DNA from: Haloarchaeobius sp. HME9146
GTDB taxonomy: Archaea; Halobacteriota; Halobacteria; Halobacteriales; Natrialbaceae
NCBI RefSeq assembly: GCF_025399835.1
Contig: NZ_JAODVR010000001.1
Location: forward strand, 124,001-188,000
Reading direction: 5' to 3'
Length of the DNA stretch: 64,000 bases
The position numbers and the translations under genes are program-made. The notes under the pieces are model-generated. The model made no database searches, had not been told where the DNA came from, and worked only from the letters and a program-made list of their open reading frames with translations. Below, one piece after another: positions 18,439 through 23,444 of this stretch (position 1 is its first letter; each line of letters begins with the position of its first letter).

Positions 18439-19791
18439 TCAGAAGGTCTCGAGGTAGCGGTCGAGCTCCCAGTCGGAGACGTCGACGAGGTAGTCCTTGA
18501 ACTCGGCGCGCTTGGCCTCGACGAACTTCTCGTAGACGTGCTCGCCGAGCGCGTCGCCGATGACCTCGTCCTCCTCGAGGGCGTCGACTGCCTCGCCGAG
18601 GTTGGTCGGCAGCGTGTTGATGCCGTACTCCTCGCGCTTCTGCTCGTCGAACTCGTAGATGTTCTCGCGGACCGGGTCCGGGCACTCGAGGCCCTGCTCG
18701 ATCCCGTCGAGACCCGCGTGGATGAGCGCCGCGAAGGCGAGGTACGGGTTACAGGACGGGTCGGGGAAGCGAGCCTCGATACGGCTGGCGGCCGGGACGC
18801 GGGCGGCCGGCTTCCGGATGAGCGCGGAGCGGTTGCGGTCGGACCACGCGACGTAGACGGGTGCCTCGTAGCCGGGCACCAGGCGCTTGTAGGAGTTCAC
18901 GGTCGGGTTCGAGACCGCCGTGATGGCCGGCGCGTGCTCGAGGATACCGGCGACGAACTGCTTCGCCGTCTCGCTCAGGTTGAACTCGTCGTCGTCGTCG
19001 TGGAACGCGTTCTCGCCGCCCTGGAACAGCGAGATGTGCGTGTGCATGCCGGAGCCGTTGATGCGCGGGATGGGCTTGGGCATGAACGTCGCGTGCAGGT
19101 CGTGCTCGGCCGCGATGGCGCGGACGACGGACCGGAACGTCGCGACGTTGTCGGCCGTCGAGAGCGCGTCGTCGTACGTGAAGTTGATCTCGTGCTGGCC
19201 CTGGGCGACCTCGTGGTGCGAGGCTTCGATGTCGAAGCCCATGGACTCGAGGCCGTAGATGATGTCACGGCGGACGTCCTGGGCGAGGTCCTTCGGCGCG
19301 AGGTCGAAGTAGCCACCGGCGTCGTTGGTCTTCGTCGTCGCGCGCCCGTCCTCGTCCTCCTCGAACAGGAAGAACTCCGGCTCGGGGGCGGCGTTGATGT
19401 CGTAGCCCATGTCCTCGGCACGCTCGATGGCGCGCTTGAGGACGCCACGCGGGTCGCCCGAGAACGGCTCGCCGGTCGAGGTGTCCATCACGTCACAGAT
19501 GAGGCGCGCGGCCGCGCTCTCTTCCGTGTTCCGCCACGGCAGGATGGCGAACGTGGACGGGTCCGGCTCGAGACGCATGTCGGACTCCTGGATACGGACG
19601 AAGCCGTCGATGGACGACCCGTCGAAGTAGATGCCCTCGGTGAACGCCTTCTCGGCCTGGCTGGCCGGGACGGAGACGTTCTTCACGGTGCCCAGGATGT
19701 CCGTGAACTGGAGGCGCAGGAAGTCGACGTTCTGTTCTTCGATCTGGTCGATGACCGCTTCTTCTTCCGCAGACAGGTTTCCGCTTGTCAT
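18439..19791 (-). CDS. glnA: Glutamine synthetase, type I
   Basis: This 450-residue enzyme joins ammonia and glutamate with ATP to make glutamine. It has the beta-grasp domain ([14 protein letters not shown], then FDGSSIDGF), the catalytic core [16 protein letters not shown], the [14 protein letters not shown] motif, [13 protein letters not shown] (ATP site) and [18 protein letters not shown] near the C-terminus. The ATG at 19791 was preferred over an in-frame ATG seven codons earlier. It is divergent from an lrp gene, an arrangement conserved in haloarchaea, where the neighbouring Lrp is a regulator of glnA. Confidence 0.96.
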
Positions 19792-19823
19792 CTTTCTGGT
19801 CGCGTAATCCAACTATCCCCACT

Positions 19824-19891
19824 ACAAAAACCCTACTGTTATACGCAATTCTACCCCCCTCCCAGTGGAACTGGATATTCGTAAAATTCTA
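19824..19891. promoter_or_regulatory. Divergent glnA/lrp promoter region
   Basis: The 126-bp space between the two starts is AT-richer than its surroundings. A weak TATA-like element for glnA lies at 19824-19832 on the minus strand, and one for lrp at 19882-19891 on the plus strand. The heptamer AATTCTA occurs twice in the same direction at 19847-19853 and 19885-19891, 38 bp apart, and could be part of Lrp binding sites. Site identity is inference. Confidence 0.4.
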
Positions 19892-19917
19892 ATGGCTGGA
19901 GGCGTAGTTCTGACGTA

Positions 19918-20376
19918 ATGACGTACGAAAATCTCGATGCGAAGTTGGTGAATGCCCTACTCGACAACGGGGACGCGAGTCTCCGCAGCCTCGCAGAACA
20001 GCTCGACGTCTCGGTGACGACGGTCTCCAATCACGTCTCCGCGCTGGAGGAGGAAGGCGTCATCCGCGGCTACACGCCCAAGATCGACTACGACCAGCTC
20101 GGCTACGACGTGACGGCCATCCTCCAGCTCAAGGTCGAGGGGAGTGCCCTCCCCGACGTGACCGAACGCCTCCGCCAGGAGAAACAGATGGTGTCGGTGT
20201 ACGAGGTCACCGGCGACTACGACGTCATCGCCATCGGGAAGTTCGTCGATACGGACGGCATGAACACCCAGATCAAGCGCCTGCTCACCGACCCCGAGAT
20301 CAAGGAGTCGAACACCTCCGTCGTCCTGAACCCGGTGTGTGAGAACGAGCAGTTCGAGCTGGACCTCGAGGACTGA
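19918..20376 (+). CDS. lrp: Lrp/AsnC family transcriptional regulator
   Basis: The 152-residue protein has an N-terminal winged helix (residues 5-55, [32 protein letters not shown]) and a C-terminal ligand-binding RAM domain (about 70-145). The latter includes [16 protein letters not shown] and [17 protein letters not shown]. Lrp proteins form octamers and sense amino acids. Position divergent from glnA agrees with the haloarchaeal Lrp known to control glutamine synthetase. Autoregulation from the shared 126-bp region is likely. Confidence 0.93.
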
Positions 20377-20572
20377 CTTCGAGTTTCGCGCCCTCGCGTG
20401 CGCTCGCGGCACGCCCGCGACCGCCGACCAGCACCGACCAGCAGCCACGTTCTCCTCGCTGGCTGTACTCTCTTGCGCGCTGGGCCGTCCCGATAGCCCA
20501 AGAAAGCCATTTTCGCCGTCGTGGTGTATGCTAGCTCGAATCGCGACCAGAATACGACTACTCACCACAGCC

Positions 20573-20887
20573 ATGACAGTCATCGCCCGGTTCGAGATAC
20601 TACCCGTCGGAGAATCGCACATGTCCGAGTCCATCGCCCGCGCGCTCGACGCGCTTGAGGAGACCGGCGTCACCTACGAGACGACCGGGATGGACACCAT
20701 CGTCGAGGCCGAGACCGCCGGCGAGGTGTTCGCCGCGCTCCAGGCCGCCCACGAGGCAGCCGCCGACGGCCGACTCGTCACCAACATCGAGATAGACGAC
20801 GACCCCGAAGCCGAACAGAGCGCCAAAGACCGCGTCTCAGCCGTCGAGAAGGCTCGTAAGCACTCGGCAGGCGCAGCGAAACCGTAG
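20573..20887 (+). CDS. Thiamine-binding protein, MTH1187/UPF0045 family
   Basis: This 104-residue protein matches the MTH1187/YkoF-like family: MTVIARFEILPVGE at the N-terminus, ALEETGVTYETTGMDTIVEAE in the middle, and a helical region ending ARKHSAG. Family members form ferredoxin-like tetramers, and some bind thiamine-type ligands; the cellular function in archaea is not settled. It follows lrp by 196 bp of unremarkable spacer and lies convergent to the MoaD-like gene. Confidence 0.85.
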   Translation: MTVIARFEILPVGESHMSESIARALDALEETGVTYETTGMDTIVEAETAGEVFAALQAAHEAAADGRLVTNIEIDDDPEAEQSAKDRVSAVEKARKHSAGAAKP

Positions 20888-20947
20888 CCTCGGTCACCTT
20901 TTCAGCATCGAAAACGGTCGGAACGACGAGCCGCGGCCGTCATCCTC

Positions 20948-21352
20948 TCAGGCGACGGCTGCGAACAGCCCGAGCTCGTCGTGGTCGTGCAGCGGCGCGG
21001 TGAACCGGTCGTCGTCGAAGGTCACGTCGTCGTGATTGACGACGAGGTGGACGCCCGGCCTGAACTCGCCCGCGTCGTCGAACACCGTCCCCGCGATGGT
21101 GGGGTACGTGTCGAGCAGCAGGTGGAGCGCGTCGGCGACCGTCGCACCCTCCTCGACCTCGACGGGGACGGACTTCTTGCCGACCGCGTGTTTGAACTCG
21201 CCGAACAGTTTCCACTCGACGTGGCTCTCGGGATGATACGCCGAGAAGTCGAAGTCGTCACAGACCGCACAGCGGCGGGGGCCGGTGGACGACGACGTCG
21301 CGTGGACGACACCGCAGTGTTGACAGACGTGAAGGTGGTTTCTGAATCCCAT
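20948..21352 (-). CDS. Zinc-ribbon plus MoaD/SAMP-like beta-grasp protein lacking the C-terminal GG
   Basis: The 134-residue protein combines an N-terminal zinc ribbon (C10-x2-C13 and C28-x2-C31) with a ubiquitin-like beta-grasp domain from residue 45. The domain matches archaeal MoaD/SAMP proteins, with VEWKLFGEFKHAVG, EEGATVADALHLLL and a final HDELGLFAAVA. SAMPs and MoaD normally end in GG, which is adenylated and then conjugated or thiolated. Here the stop follows directly after VA, so the modifier chemistry should be impossible unless the end is processed or differs from what I read. The start is ATG 21352. A structural or regulatory role is possible. Confidence 0.8.
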   Translation of the reverse strand: MGFRNHLHVCQHCGVVHATSSSTGPRRCAVCDDFDFSAYHPESHVEWKLFGEFKHAVGKKSVPVEVEEGATVADALHLLLDTYPTIAGTVFDDAGEFRPGVHLVVNHDDVTFDDDRFTAPLHDHDELGLFAAVA

Positions 21353-21476
21353 TGTGACTCCCCCAGGTAGAGATACGTCACCAGCGAGATTCAACAGAGA
21401 CCTGATTCCTCCAGTTCGCTGGGCTGTCGCTGTCCAGCGCGGGAAACGGGAGTGTGTGGGATGACAGACGAAAACG

Positions 21477-21500
21477 GGAAACTGCGCTGCGGAAACTGCG
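21477..21500. repeat. Short direct repeat GGAAACTGCG x2
   Basis: GGAAACTGCG occurs at 21477-21486 and 21491-21500 in the spacer between the MoaD-like and thermosome genes, with related GGGAAACG sequence just before. It lies about 125-150 bp upstream of the MoaD-like start and downstream of the thermosome hairpins. Its role is unknown. Confidence 0.35.
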
Positions 21501-21535
21501 TCTGGTTGTCTGCGGGTCGGTACGGGAGCGTGGTG

Positions 21536-21632
21536 GGCTATGGAAGTTCTTCTACGCCGAACTTCACATAGCCTTGGCCGAGGAAACCTCGGCCGTGCGA
21601 TGAGATTTCTCGTTCCTCGAAATCTACATCGC
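21536..21632 (-). other. Three consecutive stem-loops at the thermosome 3' end
   Basis: Three strong hairpins follow one another. Hairpin 1 covers 21597-21632 (arms GCGATGAGATTTC and GAAATCTACATCGC, one bulged A, 9-nt loop) and contains the thermosome stop codon. Hairpin 2 covers 21576-21594 (GGCCGAGG, loop AAA, CCTCGGCC). Hairpin 3 covers 21536-21573 (arms GGCTATGGAAGTTC and GAACTTCACATAGCC, one bulged A, 9-nt loop). Hairpins 1 and 3 share the same design. The array may terminate or stabilise the abundant chaperonin mRNA, or form part of a structured RNA. Confidence 0.7.
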
Positions 21633-23267
21633 GCCGCCCATGCCACCCATGCCGCCCATGCCGCCGGGTGCGCCGCCTTCGTCGTCGCCCTTGTCGGTCG
21701 ACAGGTCGCCGGCGGAGATGATGTCGTCGATCTTGAGGACGAGGTTCGCGGCCTCGGTGGCGGAGGTGTACGCCTGCTCCTTGGAGTGAGCGGGCTCGAC
21801 GACGCCAGCGTCGAAGGTGTCCTCGATGTCGCCGGAGAACACGTTCAGGCCGGCGCGCTTGTTGCCGCTCTCGTGCTCGGAGCGGAGGTTGACGAGGATG
21901 TCGATGGAGTCGAGACCAGCGTTCTCGGCGAGGACGCGGGGCACGAGTTCGAGGGAGTCAGCGAACGCCTCGACGGCGAGCTGCTCGCGACCTTCGACGG
22001 AGTCGGCGTAGTCACGGAGACGCGAGGCGACTTCGACCTCGATGGCACCGCCGCCAGCGACGACGCGGCCGTCGGAGACGGTCTGGGCGACGACGTCGAG
22101 GGCGTCGGTGACGCCGCGCTCGAGCTCGTCGACGACGTGGTCGGTGGAGCCGCGGAGGGTGAGCGTGACGCCGTGGGCGTTCTCGGCACCCTCGACGTAG
22201 AACAGCTCGTCCTCTGCGTCGCGGCTGATGGAGCCCACGCCAAGGTCGGAGGCGTCGAAGTCGTCGAGGTCGGAGACGACGGACGCGCCGAGGATCTCGC
22301 GCAGGAAGCGGATGTCGGACTTCTTCACGCGGCGGACGGCGAGGATGCCCTCCTTCGCGAGGTAGTGCTGTGCGAGGTCGTCGATGCCCTTCTGGCAGAA
22401 GACGACGTCAGCACCGGACTCGACGATGGCGTTGACCTTGTCCTTGAGCTGCTTCTCCTCCTGGTCGAGGAACTGCTGGAGCTGGCTCGGGTCGGTGACG
22501 TTGACCTCGGTGTCGACGCTGGCCTCCTCGACCTCGATGGCCTCGTTGAGGAGGAGGACCTTCGCGTCGTCGACCGTCTTGGGCATGTCGTCGTGGACCG
22601 GGTCCTTGTCGATGACCGCGCCCTTCAGGAGCTCGGAGGCGGAGGCGGGCTGGCCGGTCTGGGTCTCGATGTTGAGGTACTCCATGTCGACCTGGCCCTC
22701 GACGGTGACGGACTGGACCGCGTCGACGATGAGCTGGGCGAGGTGCTCCTTGTCGAGCTCTGCGCCCTTGCCCGTCATGGAGGTCTCGGCGACCTTCTTG
22801 AGGAGTTCCTCGTCGGAGGCGTCGACGCGCTCTGCGATGTCGTCGACCTCTTCGCGAGCCTGCTTGCTGGCGAGGTGGAAGCCCTTGATGATGGCGCTCG
22901 GGTGGATGTCCTGCTCGAGGAGGTCCTCGGCGTTCTTGAGGAGTTCACCCGCGATGGCGACGGCGGTCGTCGTGCCGTCACCGGCCTCGTCTTCCTGCGT
23001 CTCGGCGACCTCGATAATCATCTCGGCCGTCGGGTTGTCGATGTCCATCTCCTTCAGGATGGTTACGCCGTCGTTCGTGATGGTGACGTCGCCCATCGAG
23101 TCGACGAGCATCTTGTCCATCCCTTTCGGGCCGAGTGTGGAACGCACGGCCTCGGCGACTGCGCGAGCCGCCTGGATGTTGTACTCCTGCGCGTCACGGT
23201 CCTTGACGCGCTGGGACTCGTCGGACATCACGATCATCGGCTGACCTTGCTGCATTCGCTGGCTCAT
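21624..23267 (-). CDS. Thermosome subunit (group II chaperonin)
   Basis: The 547-residue subunit assembles into the double-ring ATP-driven chaperonin that folds cytosolic proteins. It has the ATP-site motifs [29 protein letters not shown] and [19 protein letters not shown], the apical-domain centre around [14 protein letters not shown], and the C-terminal [13 protein letters not shown] motif. It ends in a Gly/Met-rich tail ([13 protein letters not shown]). The start [10 protein letters not shown] agrees with haloarchaeal homologues and sits 32 nt from the centre of a strong TATA box. The upstream in-frame ATG at 23282 would lie before the predicted transcription start. Confidence 0.95.
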
Positions 23268-23294
23268 GTACAGGCGAGGCATTGATTGTGCTTC

Positions 23295-23302
23295 TATATA
23301 AA
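23295..23302 (-). promoter_or_regulatory. Thermosome proximal TATA box
   Basis: On the minus strand TTTATATA preceded by CCAAAC is centred about 32 nt before the ATG at 23267, giving a predicted leader of a few nucleotides. Confidence 0.65.
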
Positions 23303-23444
23303 AGTTTGGTAATTGGAGCATCGTGGGTCCCGTGGGATGCCGTCAGCCACCCCAGCTAATCGCAGTACAGTGGCCCATTACCCCGCATACCATGCACATC
23401 TTTACCAAACCACGAGCCGGCAATCTGGTAGCCGAACACAGCCA

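Follow-up and report, generated by a model that had tools for sequence, protein, structure and literature searches.

SAMP1, which we take to be of the HVO_2619 type, is the closest described relative of the protein reported here, and the SAMPs studied so far end, to our knowledge, in Gly-Gly (GG). In eukaryotes, UBX/UBL adaptors use a ubiquitin-like (Ubl) domain lacking GG as a docking domain. SAMP1 is 87 aa long (PMC6562870) and is the MoaD partner of MoaE (PMC4443979). Adenylation by E1 enzymes takes place at the C-terminal glycine (PMC2948915, PMC4443979). Archaeal Ubl fusions with Cgi121, E1 and MoaE are also described, as is a bacterial Ubl-RNase-zinc ribbon protein (PMC2948915, PMC4443979, PMC1779556). 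Ubl fusions as such are thus already known, and what appears new by sequence is a SAMP1 domain that lacks GG and bears a CPxCG knuckle at its N-terminus; this combination was not found among the titles listed in the literature searched, which lay mostly outside subscription journals.

The locus reported here lies in a stretch of 64,000 nucleotides of Haloarchaeobius sp. HME9146, which we call the window. Its product shares with SAMP1 (NF041918) the sequence family and the predicted beta-grasp up to the last residue before GG, but it lacks GG, carries an N-terminal metal knuckle and is rare. As in the Thermotoga TM_0779-type Ubl-Mut7-C RNase-zinc ribbon protein, a Ub-like domain and a zinc ribbon stand in one chain, whereas the order in TM_0779 is the opposite and an RNase domain is present in the published description (PMC1779556). 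The thaumarchaeotal Ubl-Cgi121 fusions and the Ubl-MoaE fusions likewise place an archaeal Ubl inside a larger protein but have other partner domains (PMC2948915, PMC4443979). In an engineered SAMP1-MoaE, JAMM1 cleavage is described to free a functional Ubl terminus, which is impossible for the fusion reported here. The eukaryotic UBX/UBL adaptors offer an analogy of working only, with a general likeness of fold (p97-bound UBX 8hrz_M, Z 8.1).

Gene, domains and C-terminus of the fusion

The ORF runs from an ATG to a TGA (Table 1), and the G+C contents of its codon positions 1, 2 and 3 (0.69, 0.40 and 0.88) follow the usual coding pattern for G+C-rich DNA. Because of this pattern, and because a homologue in a genome of a different family (G300) is 51% identical over residues 1-130, the ORF is a real gene. 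The cysteines are arranged as CQHCG...CAVC (C10, C13, C28 and C31). Residues 48-134 match Pfam ThiS (PF02597) with 32.6 bits (cut-off 22.5), and residues 45-134 match NCBIfam SAMP1 (NF041918) with 72.9 bits (cut-off 60) over model positions 1-89 of 91; the G300 fusion reaches 74.7 bits with the same SAMP1 model. Both score below the cut-off of 49.5 of TIGR01687 moaD_arch (39.6 in the window, 45.5 in G300). An AlphaFold2 model of the whole fusion, built on 25 aligned sequences, has a mean pLDDT of 93.9, a confidence that the SAMP1s and knuckles in the alignment help to raise. The best solved fold matches are two Haloferax volcanii SAMP1 crystal structures (Z 16.2, rmsd 1.5; Z 16.1, rmsd 1.3), and the match to chain 4hro_B (Z 16.2, rmsd 1.5) spans 88 residues, which predicts a beta-grasp fold. 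This search covers mainly the Ubl, and the knuckle was therefore modelled by itself. The initial annotation, which placed a zinc ribbon and a SAMP/MoaD-like Ubl without GG in one chain, is borne out.

Table 1. Features at the fusion locus (window coordinates)
Feature	Position	Strand	Basis or remark
Thermosome subunit gene, upstream neighbour	21624..23321	-	TIGR02339, 741 bits; absent beside the G300 fusion
MTH1187-like gene, convergent downstream neighbour	20579..20887	+	TIGR00106, 50.1 bits, just below cut-off 54.7
Segment of ~652 bp with the fusion gene	20887..21538		in congener G003, 92 bp of different sequence
Zinc-ribbon/SAMP1-like Ubl fusion gene	20948..21352	-	134 aa; two-domain homologue in G300; codon-position G+C
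N-terminal knuckle, residues 1-42, C10-x2-C13-G...C28-x2-C31	21227..21352	-	kin of a stand-alone haloarchaeal mini-protein
SAMP1/MoaD beta-grasp domain (predicted), residues 45-134	20951..21220	-	NF041918, PF02597, AlphaFold2 model, 4hro_B match
TGA stop at the position of SAMP1's first Gly of GG	20948..20950	-	profile, fold alignment, three-frame read

The fusion ends in ...DELGLFAAVA where SAMP1s have ...DELALFPPVSGG, and the C-terminal Gly-Gly that is a feature of SAMP1 membership is absent from it. The NF041918 alignment stops two positions before the model end, and residue 134 of the fusion model aligns with residue 85 of the 87 residues of SAMP1, with both SAMP1 crystal chains themselves aligned up to residue 85 only. 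Since the profile and structure alignments agree, exactly two residues, the GG, are missing. Continued in frame past the TGA, translation gives EDDGRGSSFRPFSMLKR up to the next stop, and GG stands right behind the TGA in none of the three frames, so no single substitution or frameshift at the stop restores a GG end. The G300 homologue (locus L050), which ends in ...DELALFTPHGTFDRPEERAQIG with the tail ...LFTPHGTFDRPEERAQIG before its stop, also lacks GG. GG was found near the domain end in 72 of 74 Ubl domains, a non-random set of loci fetched as the best matches to the fusion and Ubl queries, read with an HMM trained on SAMP1s and the window Ubl and cleared of duplicates by the last 90 residues; the two domains without it are the two fusions. 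To the question raised in the initial annotation, whether two-domain homologues all lack GG, the answer is yes for both intact fusions (2/2). Its alternative, that a G-to-T change (GGA to TGA) could have created the stop, fits neither the frames behind the stop nor the homologue of the other family. The stop does stand precisely at the GG position, as would be expected from a sequencing error, or from a point mutation that very recently hit a normal fusion with GG at its end, but with the codons behind it reading EDDGRG... and with a second family likewise without GG, we regard such an origin as extremely improbable. The loss of GG appears to be real and not an error of sequencing. Because E1-type enzymes act on the terminal glycine, the fusion would be non-conjugatable and inert for sulfur carriage; by analogy with the described enzymes, it should undergo no E1 adenylation, thiocarboxylation or attachment to lysine.

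The host genome has a canonical SAMP1 with GG (L022, ending in ...FPPVSGGSA, 126.4 bits), a second GG-bearing Ubl (L021, ending in ...FPPVAGG, 100.5 bits) and a ThiF-family E1 at G000:C1:985863 (280.7 bits), which we label putative UbaA; the fourth ThiS match of this genome (L024, 19.1 bits) is below the cut-off. Since the GG-bearing SAMP1, the second Ubl and the E1 are all present, the fusion is an addition to them and not a replacement. Among 67 distinct unfused SAMP1-type frames, 19 carry 1-12 residues past GG, the host's own ...PPVSGGSA included, and such frames may need trimming before activation.

Knuckle type and distribution

CPxCG-related zinc fingers are defined by CxxCG plus another C/H pair at a distance of 7-40 residues (PMC2253796). 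The knuckle fits this rule with C10-C13-G14 and C28-C31, which have 14 residues between them, and the fusion exceeds the 100-residue limit of the small CPxCG class. The haloarchaeal small zinc finger proteins of this class (Brz and others; PMC2253796) have CxxCG and a second CxxC in common with the fusion, a likeness judged by the motif rule, but the fusion carries a Ubl and has 134 aa. Five of the studied proteins of the CPxCG motif class are reported to be zinc-free (PMC11241148). At E 0.1, the window knuckle has one Pfam row, the transposase zinc ribbon Zn_ribbon_IS1595 (19.2 bits, cut-off 25.4), and it passes no curated cut-off. Weak rubredoxin-like matches occur among 20 knuckle members, for example to NF045720 in 12/20 and to the rubrerythrin/rubredoxin-like PF21349 in 8/20 (best 5.9e-5). 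The knuckle modelled alone (pLDDT 85.5) has as its nearest folds the zinc domain of an MCM protein (Z 5.7) and the rubredoxin domains of rubrerythrins (Z 5.3-5.4), a tie between two weak matches; Foldseek with this model gave no match at E <= 0.001, and no row was strong enough to assign the knuckle to a family by fold. Judged from profiles and model, the knuckle appears equally near rubredoxin-type domains and nucleic-acid zinc ribbons, and its metal would be zinc or iron.

The knuckle also occurs alone, as a scattered haloarchaeal mini-protein of 41-75 aa (aligned copies). Of the 125 host-family genomes searched, 11 have a knuckle match, as do 28 of 391 genomes in the class sample and 26 of 392 in the order sample; the window genome is included in each, the class and order samples were taken evenly and overlap, and about 551 genomes were drawn in all. 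The other ten knuckle frames of the host family have no Ubl attached, and none of five congeners of the window genome has the knuckle. One further intact fusion was found (L050 of G300), and a degenerate one in G372 (L067) lacks an ATG where the start is expected and has a truncated Ubl. The N-terminal zinc ribbon that the initial annotation called an unusual addition is indeed rare, but with the intact fusion in G300 it is not unique. When family f5 (170 genomes) was searched with the fusion query, one intact and one degenerate fusion were among the matches listed, while the same search gave no fusion among the matches listed in family f4 (146 genomes) and none in family f14 (10 genomes); the lists were sorted by E-value, so that a fusion is expected at the top. 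Some match to the fusion query, mostly to its Ubl part, was found in 61/61 genomes. In viral contigs, 13 stretches matched a pattern and none was confirmed, the phage records gave no match, and in none of the 15 plasmid records with a match did a single place span 80% of the query. A search of genome contigs returned four loci, three of them Haloferax loci with the knuckle only; the fourth, an Acidobacterium stretch (L028), was dropped as a chance match within a longer frame.

The stand-alone knuckle genes were also viewed in their surroundings (L025 3989-4222, L102, L103 8364-8615, L051 and L124 3001-3126). Some adjoin a putative winged-helix regulator, and some an ester cyclase-like or FAD-binding oxidase-like gene. 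For two plasmid copies (L124 and H12), the gene table, which is known to have gaps, lists no gene at the matched place. The degenerate fusion in G372 (L101, about 8280, minus strand) lies upstream of a putative ACT-domain-like gene.

Relationship of the two fusions and genomic setting

The window and G300 fusions have 28 of their 42 N-terminal residues in common; their Ubl parts resemble each other less. In both, the frame is open, and the core motifs of the Ubl (DELxLF, TVxDxL) and the four cysteines are kept. In a Ubl tree of 63 rows, for which tails were cut, near-copies thinned and the long-branch frame L040 left out, the two fusions stand on one side of a branch with support 97/88; the tree carries the warnings that its columns are few and that long branches meet, and the end branches of the fusions are 1.35 and 0.95 against a median of 0.097. 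A first tree of 74 rows that included L040 did not group the fusions, and L040 (branch 3.86) drew the window fusion to itself. A single origin of the two fusions is likely but not certain from these sequences. Differences between them at codon positions 1, 2 and 3 number 30, 30 and 33 of 75 in the Ubl and 9, 10 and 18 of 42 in the knuckle. Because the three codon positions differ about equally in the Ubl part, strong constraint on this part is not supported. L040 itself, from a genome of the same genus (G001), is a very divergent Ubl-like frame ending in ...KIFPAMRGG.

At the site of the window fusion, the congener G003, the one of five congeners that was read there, has the thermosome and MTH1187-like genes side by side and no fusion: window 19052-20886 aligns with positions 3-1824 of its locus L127, and window 21539-21631 with positions 1917-2009. 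The latter 93 bp behind the thermosome gene are identical in G003, while the flanking aligned parts are 89% and 94% identical, and the further stretch of G003 at the same site has possible hairpins by eye. The G300 fusion lies beyond a putative peptidase-like gene and has neighbours that differ from those in the window. Within 1.5 kb around that gene, none of ten congeners of G300 has the fusion, and in eight of the ten both flanks of the insertion site are close together. Similarity between the window and G300 inserts is limited to the gene, which sits between convergent neighbours in both hosts. No terminal inverted repeats or target duplication were recognised at the insertion, and a bacterial-type promoter scan of the site is uninformative for archaea. 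From these comparisons, the locus looks like a single-gene gain at a harmless place, or like repeated loss. A conserved tie to the thermosome was considered and rejected: the G300 neighbours differ, and by eye no thermosome frame was recognised at those stand-alone knuckle loci that were read.

Candidate roles of the fusion

We give about an even chance to the reading that the protein, a rare haloarchaeal knuckle joined to a SAMP1-derived Ubl without GG, is a non-conjugatable docking protein with a targeting knuckle of its own. The Ubl part would be a fixed docking surface, as in eukaryotic ubiquitin-domain proteins, and would bind a SAMP1 partner without transfer; candidate partners are UbaA, MoaE and Cdc48a (or the group of Cdc48a, RecJ3/4 and aRNase J). 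The knuckle would add a second contact, to nucleic acid or to protein, and overall the protein would compete with the SAMP1 pathway or re-site it. The two examples of a role given in the initial annotation, an inhibitor and a nucleic-acid-binding reader, are candidates only. SAMP1 beads with ATP captured Cdc48a, RecJ3/4 and aRNase J; in the part of the report consulted, the capture was ATP-dependent, the lysate contained UbaA, and the bait is not stated to lack GG (PMC10470531). Because ATP was needed and the lysate held UbaA, this capture is no proof of docking independent of GG. No partner is suggested by a conserved gene neighbour, and the neighbours in the window differ from those in G300.

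Several findings speak against docking: there are two intact members, the Ubl branches are long, change is equal across codon positions, and one copy is degenerate. Rarity, long branches, equal codon-position change and the degenerate copy make slow decay a serious rival. According to this main alternative, which we judge somewhat unlikely, the fusion is a non-essential gene that arose once, was passed around, and is at present drifting and losing its tail, its Ubl being functionless. It would explain why the fusion is sporadic (absent from 5/5 congeners and from the same site in G003), why the G372 copy has neither a start ATG nor a full Ubl, why the fusion Ubls have long branches, and why GG was lost in different ways, by a clean stop in the window and with a longer foreign tail in G300. 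But both intact copies retain the open frame, the Ubl core residues and the four cysteines, both are still above the SAMP1 cut-off, and the window model is confident along its whole length, with an alignment aided by SAMP1s and knuckles.

A narrow case of docking is a dead MoaD, in which the Ubl sits on MoaE instead of SAMP1 and blocks molybdopterin synthase. SAMP1 is described as the MoaD of this system (PMC4443979), and chains from molybdopterin synthase complexes (1fm0, Z 10.2; 5mpo, Z 11.7) are among the fold neighbours of the model. However, the tail that would enter the MoaE site is short in the window copy and foreign in G300, and no MoCo gene was recognised among the neighbours of either copy, which were judged by eye, two window neighbours being also compared with a family library; we consider this case improbable. 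The rubrerythrin and rubredoxin matches of the knuckle, in profiles (PF21349 in 8/20, NF045720 in 12/20) and in fold (Z 5.3-5.4), would suit a rubredoxin-like iron site, which would make the fusion a redox protein with the Ubl merely as a scaffold. We give this little credence, as the MCM zinc domain does equally well (Z 5.7), the single Pfam row of the window copy is a transposase zinc ribbon below its cut-off, and Foldseek gave nothing at E 0.001 or better.

If the fusion is the docking protein proposed above, it could go further and be a haloarchaeal ubiquitin-domain adaptor, encoded by a one-gene cassette that spreads into places between convergent genes, which would recruit SAMP machinery (the Cdc48a/nuclease complex, MoaE or UbaA) to chosen sites or sequester it there, an extension that we hold to be quite unlikely. 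Even if it is inert, the protein shows how a Ubl, once fused, loses its conjugation tail. A natural domain derived from SAMP1 but unattachable would be a ready probe for non-covalent partners of SAMP1, and the fusion may be an archaeal counterpart of the eukaryotic ubiquitin-domain adaptors.
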